From positions 1-64,000 of the forward strand of contig CACWPM010000018.1 in the NCBI GenBank assembly GCA_902762795.1: a stretch of DNA of 64,000 nt. Direction: 5' to 3'. This stretch comes from Fibrobacter succinogenes. Its GTDB lineage: Bacteria; Fibrobacterota; Fibrobacteria; Fibrobacterales; Fibrobacteraceae. Shown piece after piece: positions 35,812-56,219 of the stretch (its first letter is position 1; every line of letters begins with the position of its first letter). The translations under genes and the position numbers were made by a program. Below the pieces are notes generated by a model. That model saw nothing but the letters and a program-made list of their open reading frames with translations. It searched no databases and was not told the origin of the DNA.

Positions 35812-38800
35812 TTATTTATTAACCGGACGACGGTAACCAAAAACCTTGAGAAGGTCATCGCTTGTCTTGATAACGGCGTTCTTCTTCTTGTTAGCTTCAT
35901 CCTTGCTTAACGGCGGGAGGTCGCAGCGAAGCTTCGAGCTAATCTTGACTTCGGTCTTGAAAAGATAGGCGCCAGTACCCAAGAGACGTCCCTTCTTCGT
36001 CCTGACATCGCCGTTCTCATCCGGTTTCATCTCGAAGAAGGATCTCAAGAGACCCGCCTCATTCACATAAGCCGGATTATCGATGTCATATTCATAACTG
36101 TACTTTTCCACAAATGCACCCGTATTCGTGTACACCCAGATTTTCACCTTGAGCGTTGACCAGTAGAGGTTCATCTTGCTGTAGTCCGAAGTCATGGAAT
36201 TCTTGAATTCGTCCGTGCAGTACTTTTCGACATATTCTTCCACAGGCATCTTTTTACCGTTAGCGGCATCGACGCCTTCTATAGCCACCATGCCTCCAGG
36301 AGTCATGATATCGTCCAGCGTAGCCAGTCCGCCCACGCTACTTGCCACAGGAACACGAGCGTCAACCACGAGTGTCGGTCCGAGGTGACTTCCAAAACCA
36401 GGATATGGTTCCTTGCCCGAGCCATCCTTAGTCTTGCGACCGACTCCAATAATTTCTTCGGTTTCAGCATTCTTCTCGTAATTAAAGAACGTCACGCCAA
36501 AATTCTGGCCCTTCACAGGCGGATTTTCCTTGAAATACCTTTCGACAGAGTCGCGATCAATTTTAGTAACAGGCTTTTCGACTTCGATAGCAATGTCCTT
36601 CGCCTTCTTGACGATGACATGCACGGAGTCTCGGGATTCGTTACCAGCCTTGTCACGGAACACGCGGACAACCGTCTGAACACCGTTATCAAGTCCCTGC
36701 ACGCGAAGCGTATCCTGTTCTACTCCATCTACCGTCCACTTGATTTCGGCATAATTAGACGTAATCACTTCGTCTTCGACCGGAGACACAATCTTCACAA
36801 CCGGTCCCTTCTGATCAAGCACGATGAAGACGGTCTTCTTCGAAGAATTGCCAAACTTGTTCACATAGGTATAGCTGACGTTGTAACCAATATTGCCATC
36901 GTTATTCTTTGCAATCTTGCCCTTTTCATCCAGGTAATACGAAACTTCAACTGTATTGCCGTTCTTGTCGGTATAGTCGTAAGAAACCTTGTACTGGCCC
37001 GACACATTTTCCCCATCGGCAGAAAGCACGGATTCTTTATCAGAAAGCCCTGTATCCAACGATACGCGTTCACCCGTCGATGCATCCGCAAAATACGAGA
37101 TGGTCACAAACTTGTCACCAATCTTTGTTTTGTACGATACTTCGATAACGGCAATTTCCTTGGTCTCGCCAGAAGATGTGACCACAGAGCGCTTGACATC
37201 CTTACCGTTACGGTCGGTATAGTAGGTAACCGTCGTTTCGACACCATTGATTGTTTCGGTATACGTGTTCTTGTAATAAGAGCCATTTTCAGGAACGGTC
37301 GTAATGCCCGACGCCGGATTGTTCTTCCGTGTTACCTTGGTATCGGCCATTTTCTGGATGTTCTTGAATTCCTTGGACGATACAGAAACAGTATCCAGAT
37401 TAAGATTAACCGTAAAGGACTTCGAAACATTAGCTGCGGTATCCTTGACAGTAACCCAGATGTCGTTCGCCTTCTTGTTCACGTAAATAGCCGTATCGTT
37501 TTTCGTAGTCTTTTCAACGACCGTGTAAATGTTTTCCGCAGTCACGTCTTTACCGTTAGCAGATACAGTCACAACCGGAGCCGCATTGCTGTAGCAAACG
37601 ACGACCGATGCAGAACCCGCTTCGTTCTTGGTCGGATCCTTATAAGTCTTCGTAATGACGTTGCAGCCGGGACGCAGCGAATCGGTGCTGGATTTAATTT
37701 TATCGTCAGCCTTCCATTCGATATCGACAACCGGGACATTCACGAAAACGGAATCCGGCTTAAGGTAGATGGAATCCTTCGTTTCTACACGGGTGATTTC
37801 GACAATCGACTTTTCGTAGATATCTTTCACCTTCACGACCACATTCTTGGTCGACGTAAGCGTTTTGTCATCCTTGTCTGTCACGCGGACGGTAATCGTA
37901 TAAAGCGAATCGGATTCGTAATCCACCGGTTTCAAGAGAACTACGTCACCATTCGGCTTCACGGAGAAGATTTCGCTGCCGTCCGTATTTTCGTAAACGT
38001 TGTTACGGAAATCAGCATTCTTGGTATCAGGATCGTCCTGGTCCGTCTTGACCGAGCTAAACGGATTATTCACGGCCTGATTTTCATACACATAAATAGT
38101 ATCCACAATGACAGACGGAGCTTCATTCATGTCGAGCACGTTAATAGTGACGGTCGTGTCAGAATAGGCGCCATTTTCATCCTTGACGCGGACCTTGACA
38201 GAATAGGATTCCGTCTTTTCAAAATCCAGCGGAGAAGCTACAGTAAATACACCCGTAGCCGAATCCAGCTTGAATTCATTAGTCGAGAGAACTTCCTTCG
38301 TTCCATCTAGAATAAAGTATTTGAATTTTCCCGAATCATCCAAAAGATCTGGGTCGAGAGCATCGAGATGTTCCTTGACGGCTGTTCCAATCGGTTCTGT
38401 TTCGGGAACCGTGAACACAATATCCTTCAAGTAAGGAGGTTCATTCACATTGACCAGTTCAATCGTAATCTTTCCTGTCGCCGTAAGATCGGCCCTGCCC
38501 GAAACATCGTAAATGCGAATTGTCAACTCGTACGTTTTCGGATCCGTTTCGTAGTCGAATTTACGCGTCGTGGTAAGCACGCCCGTTTCAGGATCCAGAT
38601 AGAAACCGTCTACAACTCCCACTATTTCAAACCTATCATTTGTAAACTTCTTGGCCGTATCGAGATCAGCCAATGGGATTGTCCCAATTTCGTAGCCCTT
38701 TGCATTTTCAGGGAACGTGAAGGCTGTAGTCGGCTCGACAAAGATCGGTTTTTCATTCAAATCATTGAGCTTGATAATAACCTTGGCGGTATCGGTCTGT

Positions 38801-41541
38801 ACAGACTGAGCATTATTGCCAGAAGCATCGGATGCGACAACATTCATTTCATAAACATTCTTGGTTTCGAAATCCAAGATGGCCCCATCAGCAACCGTAA
38901 TCACGCCCGTACCTGGGTCAATCACAAACGAATTCGTTGAATCGAGCAAGATGTAAGTAATCTTGGCGCCTTCCTGCGTTGTCGTTGCATGGATTGCATT
39001 ATCCATATCGACTTCTGTACCGGCAATAGAATTTTCATCTATTTTGCCATTGTAAACCTTAAAATCAAATTCAGGGCCATCATTGACATCTTGAACTATA
39101 ACGACAAAGGTCTTTTCATCGAATAAATCCGCAAAAACATAGTTACCATCGACATCCTTTATGGCGTCCTGAACTCTCAATGTAAGCTTGTACTCGTTTT
39201 TGGTTTCGTAATCGAGGACAACACCCGTCTTTACCTTGACAATGCCTGTTGCAGTCACTTCGAAAACATCGACATCGCCACCGGTCAAAACGACTTCGTT
39301 AGTGGTAAGCGAGCCATCGGTATTATACTTGTCCGTATCTTCGAACTTGACTTTTTCGGCAACTTTGGAATCTTCGGCTATATAAATAGTATCCTTGTTG
39401 GTAAAGTACGGTTTTTCGTTGATATCCCTGACGCTGATTTTAAAGGTAAAATCATCGCACAACAAGGCATTGAACGAAGTTGCCTTAGCATCGCAGATTT
39501 CTACTTGAATAGTATAAGGCTCTTTTGTCGGATTGCTATTCTTCGCTTCGATCCAAGCTTCATAATCAAACGGATCTACGCCATTTTTCATGGACACGGT
39601 CCCCTTTGTCGGATCAATTTCAAACAAATCCTTAGCCGTACCTCCAACAATATCATAAATAAAGGCATCATCCTCATCGTCCTTAGCTTTGACAACGCCG
39701 GCCGTTGCCTTCGAGACATTCTCAGAAACAATGAGATTCGTCTTTTCGGGATTGACAAAATGAGGTCTATTGTTGTTCGCATCGACAAGCTTGATCAAAA
39801 GACCACCATCGAACCTGTTTCCCGTAATAGTAGCTCCGTTCAAGTTGAAAATCCGGAACAACATAAATTCATCGTCTTCCACCAAACCGTCATTGTTGAC
39901 CTTGATAAATGCCGACAATGAATCGATAGTCGGTTTGCGATCACCCTTCTTGATGACCATCGTCCTCCTCTTGCCTTCCGAGCAGAACGGCATGAAATGC
40001 ACATCTTTGGGATCCGACGGATTATCTGCTAAATCTGCACGCTTGGCAAATTCTCCAGAAAGGCGCCCTTTATAGGCCGCATACTTTGTGTCGGCATCCG
40101 GGATTTCGTCAAAGAACGAGAAACAGTACTCAAAGGAAACTTCGGCATGGGTCGTATCCGTGAGGTAAAATTCCATGTTGTACCATTTATTGTCATCTTC
40201 CTTAAAACCGTTGTTGAAGAAGATATCAGGCTTGATTTCGGGAGAGTTGAACGGCACGTAGTGGAATTCTCCGTTGACATCGGATTCAAACCAAAGCGTC
40301 TTACCGGCAATCAACTGCCCTGCAAGATTCATGTGGTCCTGAATTACAAATCTTCCTGTCGTGATAAACGTTCCCTGGTAATCAATATCAACCATCGATT
40401 CCCATTTGACATCCTTGGTCGTATAGAACATTAAATTGCCGGCATAATTGGAATCGGCAACAACAACGGACTTGCTCAAATCAAAATTATTCCAGGAACT
40501 ACCATTCCAAGAAGCCTCATCGTTGACATAGACAATCTGTATTTTAGTGTCGTTTGCACTTTTATGGAAATTAAACCCGTCTTTTGAGAAAATACGCGTC
40601 AAACGTCCGGTCTTGCCATTTGCATTCTTCGATCCGGAAGGCATCAAGATATAAAGCTTTTTGCCCTTGCTGCCCCCTTCTATTCCCAATTGAATGTCTT
40701 TCACAAACATGTCATACCAGGTATGAGAGTTTTTGACATCATTTTCACTAATCGGCGGAATATGTATATACGCCGTTTCATTTTCGTAATTAGAAGTCAT
40801 GACGATGGCATCACCCCAAGTAATACCCGCCTCATCTAAAACAGGAACACGAAGATGCTTATCGGGCTGTGGAACGTCACTAGGACAGTTTTCATAGGAA
40901 CCGTTAAGATTCAAGCCCGTCAATGCAGATGCGCTCCCTTCGCTTTTCGTATTCCAGTCGGCATAAACTTGACCGCCAGCATTACGGACATTGTTTATAA
41001 AATTATTGACATGTTCTACATCGCGGCCATTATTATTTTCCTGCATGAAGACCTGATGTTCAAAACACATCACAGCATTCAAACTTGTATTCTGAGCACT
41101 ATACCATTTCGGAAGGAGCAAGCTATCGGCGCGGACAAGGCCTTTTATCAAGACATCATTGTTTGCGGACCCGTCAATAATCTCTAAATTTCCTCCAGAG
41201 ACAATCGGTCCACCTAAAGTGTGGTCATCCGCCATAAAGATGATTCTATCTCTTGCGGTACCCGTATATCCGCTAGTTTCGCGAATGGAAAACTTACCCT
41301 TTGCAAAAACGACGGAATCAGTCCCCCAGAGCTTATATTTCATAAGCTCGTTCCAAAGTTTCTGGTTTTCCTCTTCGCTAGTCACGGCAACACCACTGGA
41401 ATCCACGAAATGGAGAGGATCCAGTTTGATGTATTCGCGTTCTACTGGAGGCTCATCTTGAGCCGAAGCCGGCACAAAAAATCCAAGTGCCAACATCATT
41501 GAACCAATAACGGTTCTAAAAGCAATAATATCCTTTTTCAT
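35812..41541 (-). CDS. Cadherin-repeat surface protein (about 1909 residues), paralogue of the neighbour
   Basis: The start at MKKDIIAFRTVIGSMMLALGFFVPASA gives a standard signal peptide. An upstream in-frame ATG is rejected. The layout mirrors the larger paralogue: a unique N-terminal region (about 28-430), a Calx-beta domain (about 434-587, EFYLTDTTHAEVSFEYCFSF), about six or seven cadherin-type repeats (about 587-1244, ending VRDINEKPYF, VQDVNDGPEF, LVNVNEPPYL, VLDMNEAP), Ig-like strands (about 1245-1650), and a C-terminal module (about 1655-1909) that shares EPYPGFGSHLGPTLVVD, VASSVGGLATLDDI and FGYRRP with the other protein. It has its own terminator and upstream GTTACTATATT box, so the two genes are separate units. 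Extracellular adhesion is the likely role. Confidence 0.86.
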   Translation of the reverse strand: MKKDIIAFRTVIGSMMLALGFFVPASAQDEPPVEREYIKLDPLHFVDSSGVAVTSEEENQKLWNELMKYKLWGTDSVVFAKGKFSIRETSGYTGTARDRIIFMADDHTLGGPIVSGGNLEIIDGSANNDVLIKGLVRADSLLLPKWYSAQNTSLNAVMCFEHQVFMQENNNGRDVEHVNNFINNVRNAGGQVYADWNTKSEGSASALTGLNLNGSYENCPSDVPQPDKHLRVPVLDEAGITWGDAIVMTSNYENETAYIHIPPISENDVKNSHTWYDMFVKDIQLGIEGGSKGKKLYILMPSGSKNANGKTGRLTRIFSKDGFNFHKSANDTKIQIVYVNDEASWNGSSWNNFDLSKSVVVADSNYAGNLMFYTTKDVKWESMVDIDYQGTFITTGRFVIQDHMNLAGQLIAGKTLWFESDVNGEFHYVPFNSPEIKPDIFFNNGFKEDDNKWYNMEFYLTDTTHAEVSFEYCFSFFDEIPDADTKYAAYKGRLSGEFAKRADLADNPSDPKDVHFMPFCSEGKRRTMVIKKGDRKPTIDSLSAFIKVNNDGLVEDDEFMLFRIFNLNGATITGNRFDGGLLIKLVDANNNRPHFVNPEKTNLIVSENVSKATAGVVKAKDDEDDAFIYDIVGGTAKDLFEIDPTKGTVSMKNGVDPFDYEAWIEAKNSNPTKEPYTIQVEICDAKATSFNALLCDDFTFKISVRDINEKPYFTNKDTIYIAEDSKVAEKVKFEDTDKYNTDGSLTTNEVVLTGGDVDVFEVTATGIVKVKTGVVLDYETKNEYKLTLRVQDAIKDVDGNYVFADLFDEKTFVVIVQDVNDGPEFDFKVYNGKIDENSIAGTEVDMDNAIHATTTQEGAKITYILLDSTNSFVIDPGTGVITVADGAILDFETKNVYEMNVVASDASGNNAQSVQTDTAKVIIKLNDLNEKPIFVEPTTAFTFPENAKGYEIGTIPLADLDTAKKFTNDRFEIVGVVDGFYLDPETGVLTTTRKFDYETDPKTYELTIRIYDVSGRADLTATGKITIELVNVNEPPYLKDIVFTVPETEPIGTAVKEHLDALDPDLLDDSGKFKYFILDGTKEVLSTNEFKLDSATGVFTVASPLDFEKTESYSVKVRVKDENGAYSDTTVTINVLDMNEAPSVIVDTIYVYENQAVNNPFSSVKTDQDDPDTKNADFRNNVYENTDGSEIFSVKPNGDVVLLKPVDYESDSLYTITVRVTDKDDKTLTSTKNVVVKVKDIYEKSIVEITRVETKDSIYLKPDSVFVNVPVVDIEWKADDKIKSSTDSLRPGCNVITKTYKDPTKNEAGSASVVVCYSNAAPVVTVSANGKDVTAENIYTVVEKTTKNDTAIYVNKKANDIWVTVKDTAANVSKSFTVNLNLDTVSVSSKEFKNIQKMADTKVTRKNNPASGITTVPENGSYYKNTYTETINGVETTVTYYTDRNGKDVKRSVVTSSGETKEIAVIEVSYKTKIGDKFVTISYFADASTGERVSLDTGLSDKESVLSADGENVSGQYKVSYDYTDKNGNTVEVSYYLDEKGKIAKNNDGNIGYNVSYTYVNKFGNSSKKTVFIVLDQKGPVVKIVSPVEDEVITSNYAEIKWTVDGVEQDTLRVQGLDNGVQTVVRVFRDKAGNESRDSVHVIVKKAKDIAIEVEKPVTKIDRDSVERYFKENPPVKGQNFGVTFFNYEKNAETEEIIGVGRKTKDGSGKEPYPGFGSHLGPTLVVDARVPVASSVGGLATLDDIMTPGGMVAIEGVDAANGKKMPVEEYVEKYCTDEFKNSMTSDYSKMNLYWSTLKVKIWVYTNTGAFVEKYSYEYDIDNPAYVNEAGLLRSFFEMKPDENGDVRTKKGRLLGTGAYLFKTEVKISSKLRCDLPPLSKDEANKKKNAVIKTSDDLLKVFGYRRPVNK

Positions 41542-41599
41542 ATAGCTAACCCCGAACAATAAAAATTCAGATCAATATGACCCTAAACACCTACTATTG

Positions 41600-42561: not shown

Positions 42562-42765
42562 ACGCCCCCTATGTAAATCATGGACACATATGTGGCCAAA
42601 GAAGTCCGGCAGACGAAAGAGTATCGTGCGATGAGCCCTGATTGTTTTAATATCGCCGCCTAGTCATCTACACTCGTGGCCCACCGCCGAAAACTCAATA
42701 TCAACAAGCTATAAACGCCACAGAACCATGTAAAACGCACTGCAATACCAAACCTTTTTATTTCA

Positions 42766-43047
42766 GTACCTATAAAACAGATGGCAACGAAATTTTATAG
42801 GTACCGAAGACTCCTTTTTTCTATTTCGTACCTATAATTTTTTCATTTTGTACCTATAAAATCCTAAAAGACAACACTTTTATAGGTACACTTTCCTGAT
42901 TTTACATACAAAACAAACATAAAATTACCTATAAAAACGAATTTATGCGTTATTTATAGGTACAAGCCCACTAAAAAAGGCCTTACAGAACAAGCAAGAA
43001 ACTGTTTTGTACCTATAAAGCACACAAAACATTAATTTTATAGGTAC
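42766..43047. repeat. Array of four 12-bp-arm inverted repeats plus one half-site (GTACCTATAAAA)
   Basis: The arm GTACCTATAAAA and its complement alternate: forward at 42766, 42828, 42850, 42925 and 43009; reverse at 42793, 42878, 42953 and 43036. Pairs 42766/42793, 42850/42878, 42925/42953 and 43009/43036 enclose unrelated 15-16 nt spacers. 42828 is unpaired. Unit centres lie about 75-85 bp apart. The rest of the convergent gap 42562-43132 shows no gene. Each pair could form a stable hairpin in either transcript. Known repeat or insertion families are not recognised. Confidence 0.9.
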
Positions 43048-43132
43048 TTTTTCAGAATCGTCCTAAATACTTGCAATAATTAGGGGAAGCATAGAACCAT
43101 CCCCTACTTCAACTACGCAATCATTCGACAAG

Positions 43133-55973: not shown

Positions 55974-56219
55974 TTTTTACGTAAAAAAAGTCCGTATATA
56001 CGGCTTTTTGACGTAAAAAACCATACAAAGTAATAAAAATTACAAATAAAGTTTTATTTTGGAGGAATTTTAAGTTATTTTTTTCGTCAAAAAATGTAAT
56101 TTCTATCAAAACATGTTCTAAAAAAAACGAAAAAAGAGTAAAACCTCATAAAAAGGTACAGACAACGTATAAAATTTACGTCAAAAACGACAAAAATCCA
56201 TTATTTTTTACGTAAAATT
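55974..56219. repeat. ACGT-centred inverted repeat array (second convergent gap)
   Basis: Arms of the type TTTTTACGTAAAAA or TTTTGACGTAAAAA occur at 55974, 56004, 56078, 56172 and 56204. The first pair forms an imperfect 47-bp inverted repeat whose centre is CCGTATATACGG (55992-56003). The last pair (56172-56187 and 56204-56219) encloses 16 nt. 56078-56094 (TTTTTTCGTCAAAAAA) is a related half-site. The gap between tgt and the GH5 gene holds no gene. The layout resembles the 42766 array but with a different arm. Confidence 0.75.

Follow-up and report, generated by a model that had tools for sequence, protein, structure and literature searches.

Helically phased palindrome arrays in Fibrobacter: candidate dispersed repeats of a predicted Vsr/TnsA-like nuclease

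The window array and its dispersed copies

What is an array of four palindromes with one arm sequence doing between two host genes of a rumen Fibrobacter, and how did it come to be there? The array lies at 42766-43047 of the 64,000-nt stretch of DNA analysed here (the window), flanked by a histidine phosphatase superfamily gene (PF00300; 41773..42561, plus strand; syntenic in relatives) and a DUF5683 protein gene (PF18935; 43133..44275, minus strand), both of them outside the element. An earlier note on this DNA had described nine arms in about 280 bp, four inverted pairs with 15-16 nt spacers, a unit spacing of some 75-85 bp and convergent neighbours, and all of this was borne out: nine arms are present at up to 2 mismatches (five are exact 12-mers), eight of them form pairs whose 12-mers are separated by 15, 16, 15 and 15 nt, and the centre-to-centre pitches are 84.5, 74.5 and 84 bp. 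The four inverted-repeat units, which have no strand, occupy 42766..42804 (39 bp, GTACCTATAAAA-15-TTTTATAGGTAC), 42850..42889 (40 bp), 42925..42963 (39 bp, with one change, TTACC, in the left arm) and 43009..43047 (39 bp); the ninth arm is a plus-strand half-site, GTACCTATAATT, inside a 22-bp (two-turn) insertion (42828..42849) that is missing from the 12 other arrays in the subfamily alignment. The whole window holds 15 arm matches at up to 2 mismatches against 3.9 expected, and 200 dinucleotide shuffles of the gap gave at most one unit each, which places the array far above chance. Weak alignment with other arrays of the genome carries the element about 40 bp further left and 35 bp further right, to approximate ends at 42725..43082 (no strand).

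The window also contains a minus-strand open reading frame of 1915 aa with cadherin-type repeats (35812-41559) and a second, different array (55974-56216) between tgt (plus strand) and a cellulase gene (minus strand), in which two palindromic units around TTTTACGTAA/TTACGTAAAA stand 199 bp apart. The arm of this second array resembles that of an array on contig 3 of the same genome (pitches 200.5 and 211) at a nuclease paralogue, L234, whose gene has an internal stop codon.

A search of the window's entire genome (G000) with GTACCTATAAA returned 85 sites, all within 15 clusters of about 210-280 bp, compared with 3 sites for the reversed control sequence. Simple ORF calling places 5 of these 15 arrays between convergent, 8 between tandem and 2 between divergent genes, so the weight that had been put on a 3'-3' gap finds no support. 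Thirteen arrays have common sequence that covers the array and roughly 30-60 bp outside, where similarity stops; neither a target-site duplication nor an exact insertion end was found across the aligned arrays of the subfamily. The loops, described as unrelated, do differ within the window array, yet those in corresponding positions of other subfamily arrays are partly alike. A further GTACC array on the window's contig (contig 18, 110963-111204) has two units 168 bp (16 turns) apart and a counterpart in G019 and RGIG10017.

An initial search of 37 Fibrobacter genomes found GTACC arrays in 4, and a scan across GTDB located the unit in further Fibrobacter MAGs as well as Fibrobacterales Fibro_02, Fibrobacter UBA4223 and two clostridial MAGs. 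One of the latter, S27M_St_58, has 98 exact cores, its examined arrays consisting of 5-8 units at an 84-bp pitch; with 98 units in one assembly contamination is unlikely, despite possible binning error of single contigs. A second arm family is scattered likewise (24 units in one genome), and the array pattern was not found on viral contigs. Over all families the unit measures 35-45 bp, with arms of 10-12 bp around a spacer of about 16-20 bp that is not conserved, in arrays of 3-13.

The window gene pair is intact in 22 relatives, with a gap of 2-229 bp (577 bp in G000) that holds an array in none of them, G019 and G006 included, both of which have GTACC arrays elsewhere; the window array is therefore a lineage-specific gain. 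Six other arrays are common to G000 and G019 at the same genes, and in these the arms are 93.8% identical, the loops 79.7%, the sequence between units 77.5% and the flanks 75.4%. Together with the empty window site, they show that lineages acquire arrays and afterwards retain them. Either selection or homogenisation maintains the arms, and gene conversion could be the means of the latter. The GTACC units carry 1.12 changes each in G006 (from 8 units only), 0.48 in G000 and 0.35 in G019; the nearest nuclease homologue in G006 has a different arm, not GTACC. The earlier note had expected its reading to fail with a single array and unconserved arms, and the opposite was found; its suggestion of a mobile-repeat relic agrees with the 15 dispersed copies and with a window site that 22 relatives have empty, although the conserved arms of orthologous arrays make the term "relic" doubtful.

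Helical phasing and a nuclease family beside the arrays

The pitches in G000 cluster at 61-64, 74-75, 84-86, 94-97 and 168 bp. Taken over all arrays and all arms, 266 pitches fit multiples of 10.56 bp with a score of 0.91, and the fit of the 32 non-redundant turn-class means per group was unmatched in 20000 randomisations; the classes seen are 5, 6, 7, 8, 9, 10, 13, 14, 15, 16 and 20 turns. The array detector left the pitch free apart from a minimum of about 25 bp, and homologous arrays are non-independent, yet six groups with unrelated sequence give one period. A pitch of whole helical turns indicates a protein complex seated on duplex DNA, not a row of RNA hairpins.

Clustering of the open reading frames near arrays revealed one family, 264-307 aa in length, that adjoins an array in every well-covered genome of both phyla, and this nuclease is the only protein family recurring at arrays in Fibrobacter, Fibro_02, UBA4223 and a clostridial MAG. 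In G000 the member with the GTACC arm is encoded on contig 37 (6851-7747), with its array just upstream. It was predicted beforehand that homologues would carry their own arrays with their own arms, and an arm-blind de novo search found at least three units at 67/100 loci: 27/30 in Fibrobacter, 14/30 in clostridial genomes and 26/40 in an additional set. Ten more loci have two units, bringing those with at least two to 77/100, and about a third of all nuclease loci (half of the clostridial ones) have no clear array by this detector. By comparison, 29 control loci and shuffles gave at most one unit each (0/29 with at least two), all controls being DUF5683 loci, taken from Fibrobacter and from other members of its phylum. 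At the 67 loci the array is upstream in 61 and downstream in 14, 8 of them having arrays on both sides. The arms at homologue loci include TTACATACTAA, ATGCATATAA, GGGGCRTATAA, TTACGGACTAA, TTACGTACTA, TGCTAC(C/T/A)AAA and GTACGGATAA, and several paralogues with different arms coexist within one genome. The protein-site option of the earlier note thus gains support from the phasing, from the existence of a cognate gene accompanied by an array, and from arms in which the sequence, as opposed to the base pairing, is conserved.

The structure model of the nuclease (pLDDT 88.6) matches I-Bth0305I (Z 8.6 over 89 residues, level with the next two), Bax1 (8.2), TnsA (8.1), VRR_NUC (6.9) and Vsr (6.6). 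Since these scores are moderate, we claim for the C-terminal domain a predicted restriction-endonuclease-like fold of the Vsr/TnsA/I-Bth0305I kind and no membership of a single family. Fourteen residues, among them those of catalytic type, are invariant in 52 sequences (R192, S193, K194, E196, Y212, E213, P226, D227, F228, E242, H243, G245, Y252 and E279). No model in Pfam or NCBIfam covers the protein. Among 61 relatives of the window genome 22 have the family, every one belonging to its genus, as do 37 of 246 sampled genomes of the clostridial order, with up to 9 copies per genome among the matches listed; the full-length protein occurs in 5 of 398 genomes drawn across the entire clostridial phylum. 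The full-length protein also turned up in a single faecal record of 4.2 kb, and plasmid searches did not return it. A phage or plasmid family was rejected, given that viral contigs lack the array pattern and viral relatives match the C-terminal domain only.

Identity between the GTACC-arm enzyme of G000 (L133) and its nearest homologue in G006 (L135, TTACATACTAA arm) is about 97% for residues 101-299 and drops to about a quarter for residues 21-95. With N-terminal domains unrelated and arms that differ, this domain, made of helices and a beta-hairpin, most likely reads the half-site, and the pair represents a natural domain exchange accompanying an arm change. A beta-hairpin motif, LRxxxxxxxxQYY, tracks the arm across paralogues, LRVITNHNRPQYY for example going with TTACATACTAA and LRVQPHKKSFQYY with GGGGCRTATAA. 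A partial Mantel test of arm against hairpin similarity, with the nuclease domain held constant, gave r 0.24 (0/500 permutations), a modest effect to be read with the fact that short arms can agree by chance; the hairpin-to-arm relation may amount to a readable recognition code. Predicted alone, the N-terminal domain matched coiled-coil-type folds only, at Z 7.6 or less. Two arms are common to Fibrobacter and Clostridia, GTACCTATAA in L133 and L173 and TTACGGACT in L144 and L186; the proteins in each pair are distant (nuclease domains 45-49% identical) and their closer relatives have different arms; horizontal exchange or convergence may be the cause.

Possible roles of the arrays

Our best reading, to which we give a probability of about 0.58, is that of a nuclease-driven dispersed repeat that works as REP/RAYT does with unrelated parts, the window array being a dispersed, non-autonomous copy of the predicted binding site for a nuclease encoded elsewhere in the genome. 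Subunits of the nuclease would bind the two inverted half-sites of each unit; the whole-turn spacing would put the bound units on one face of the DNA, where a single multi-subunit complex could form; cleavage by this complex, in arrays or close to them, would lead to array copies being placed in new intergenic sites, while the nuclease gene would retain its own upstream array. Dispersal, phasing, the pairing of nuclease with array, arm conservation, co-variation of arm and N-terminal domain, and the gain at the window site are visible in the sequences themselves; the predicted fold, the REP/RAYT analogy and the lineage-specific gain are what suggest binding, cutting and spread of arrays by the nuclease. 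We consider it slightly favoured, too, that Fibrobacter and a clostridial order harbour a new class of mobile or selfish DNA, in which Vsr/TnsA-like nucleases, each recognising a half-site of about 10 bp through an N-terminal hairpin that can be exchanged, spread and maintain their own paired, helically phased arrays.

The strongest competitor, although an unlikely one, is a host-serving protein, a DNA-binding regulator or chromosome organiser for which the upstream array would be an operator and the dispersed arrays regulon or architectural sites maintained by the host. The upstream position at 61 of 67 loci is operator-like, helical phasing is typical of cooperative binding, and the arms are conserved in orthologous arrays; a purely host-serving function would also give arrays at the same place in several species. 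Such a function sits poorly with the patchy distribution of GTACC arrays, the several paralogues with differing arms in one genome, the mixed gene orientation around arrays, which is unlike a promoter regulon, the invariant nuclease residues, and a window array that is missing from every relative checked.

Still less probable is a defence module, in which the nuclease would attack invading DNA and the arrays would label self DNA, store the enzyme or recruit it. The C-terminal domain (about 110 residues) is similar to the PADLOC candidates PDC-S68 (E about 1e-24), several specificities are found per genome, and, much as restriction systems do, the family swaps its N-terminal domain while the nuclease part stays constant. 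However, the PDC-S68 candidate is a large multi-domain protein, and a full-length relationship was rejected because the match is limited to model positions of about 1090-1235; arrays aside, no partner genes recur at the nuclease, and no target site is known beyond the arrays.

A miniature transposon relic, with arrays spread by an unrelated transposase and a nuclease adjacent by hitch-hiking, would account for a subfamily of dispersed copies with common flanks and is very improbable, given that the nuclease association recurs with independent arms in two phyla, that the arms co-vary with the N-terminal domain, and that the Y1 transposases of G000 (matches on contigs 1 and 69) are on no array contig. 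The weakest reading, an RNA element whose units are transcript hairpins acting as a bidirectional terminator or stabiliser between convergent genes, is hardly credible: the array strand folds better than its shuffles (z -6.7), though palindromes always would, whereas the pitch tracks B-DNA turns, tandem and divergent gaps hold arrays too, the core ACCTATAA is almost invariant, Rfam covariance models gave 0 matches to the array at E <= 1, and compensation of arm changes is rare, the 131 changed arm positions in 176 units comprising 6 compensated, 37 G-U and 88 pair-breaking changes.

Two further candidates were rejected. An intrinsic terminator is at odds with A+T-rich stems, long loops and occupied divergent gaps. 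One frame of the clostridial 84-bp repeats is open and would encode 28-residue TYK...FIGT repeats (L098, 493-1163; L108, 2198-2452; L118, 2703-3230), but coding is a by-product because neither the 39-bp units nor the Fibrobacter pitches are divisible by 3; some database entries with these peptides may thus be wrongly called genes.

Comparison with known systems

No similar nuclease-repeat system was found in the open-access papers searched, and searches there for the arm sequences gave chance matches only; a Thermus CRISPR repeat containing GTACCTATAAGGG is unrelated. A CRISPR array was itself rejected, as the half-sites are inverted, the pitches differ from one another by helical turns, and the genes recurring beside arrays include no cas-like family. 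The PDC-S68 proteins, at about 1200 residues, have no known array. TnsA of Tn7 has a similar nuclease fold, and the ends of Tn7 carry several protein-binding sites; unlike in Tn7, TnsB, TnsC and other transposition genes are not recurrent at the arrays. The EDxHD homing endonuclease I-Bth0305I, the best match to the C-terminal fold, is likewise a stand-alone nuclease gene tied to a specific DNA site. The gene described here, in contrast, is free-standing and chromosomal, with an array upstream, and is not within an intron or intein, and its presumed sites are dispersed arrays rather than the empty allele of its own location.

The closest parallel in way of working is REP/RAYT (REP, BIME and REPIN elements with RAYT, or TnpA-REP, transposases), in which dispersed extragenic palindromes co-evolve with an enzyme gene flanked by cognate palindromes, several families occurring per genome (PMC2817692, PMC3116915, PMC8266576). 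The array system also pairs dispersed extragenic palindromes with an enzyme gene, but its parts differ. The enzyme of a REPtron is a Y1 (HUH) tyrosine transposase (PF01797), whereas the array-adjacent protein has no Pfam match and a predicted Vsr-like fold, and the outer arm ends are GTAC, TTAC, GGGG, TGCT and others according to family, in place of GTAG/CGTC at the hairpin foot.

If our reading is right, a chromosomal enzyme would maintain a population of small palindromic sites in a system common in gut and rumen bacteria. With its modular N-terminal domain and dozens of protein/site pairs, the family would be a natural data set for a protein-DNA recognition code, and new sequence-specific nucleases could perhaps be obtained. 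REP enzymes work on folded single strands, and the whole-turn arrays suggest duplex binding here; the nuclease arrays would thus be a second, independent solution of the REP/RAYT type, with a different enzyme and with duplex instead of single-strand recognition.
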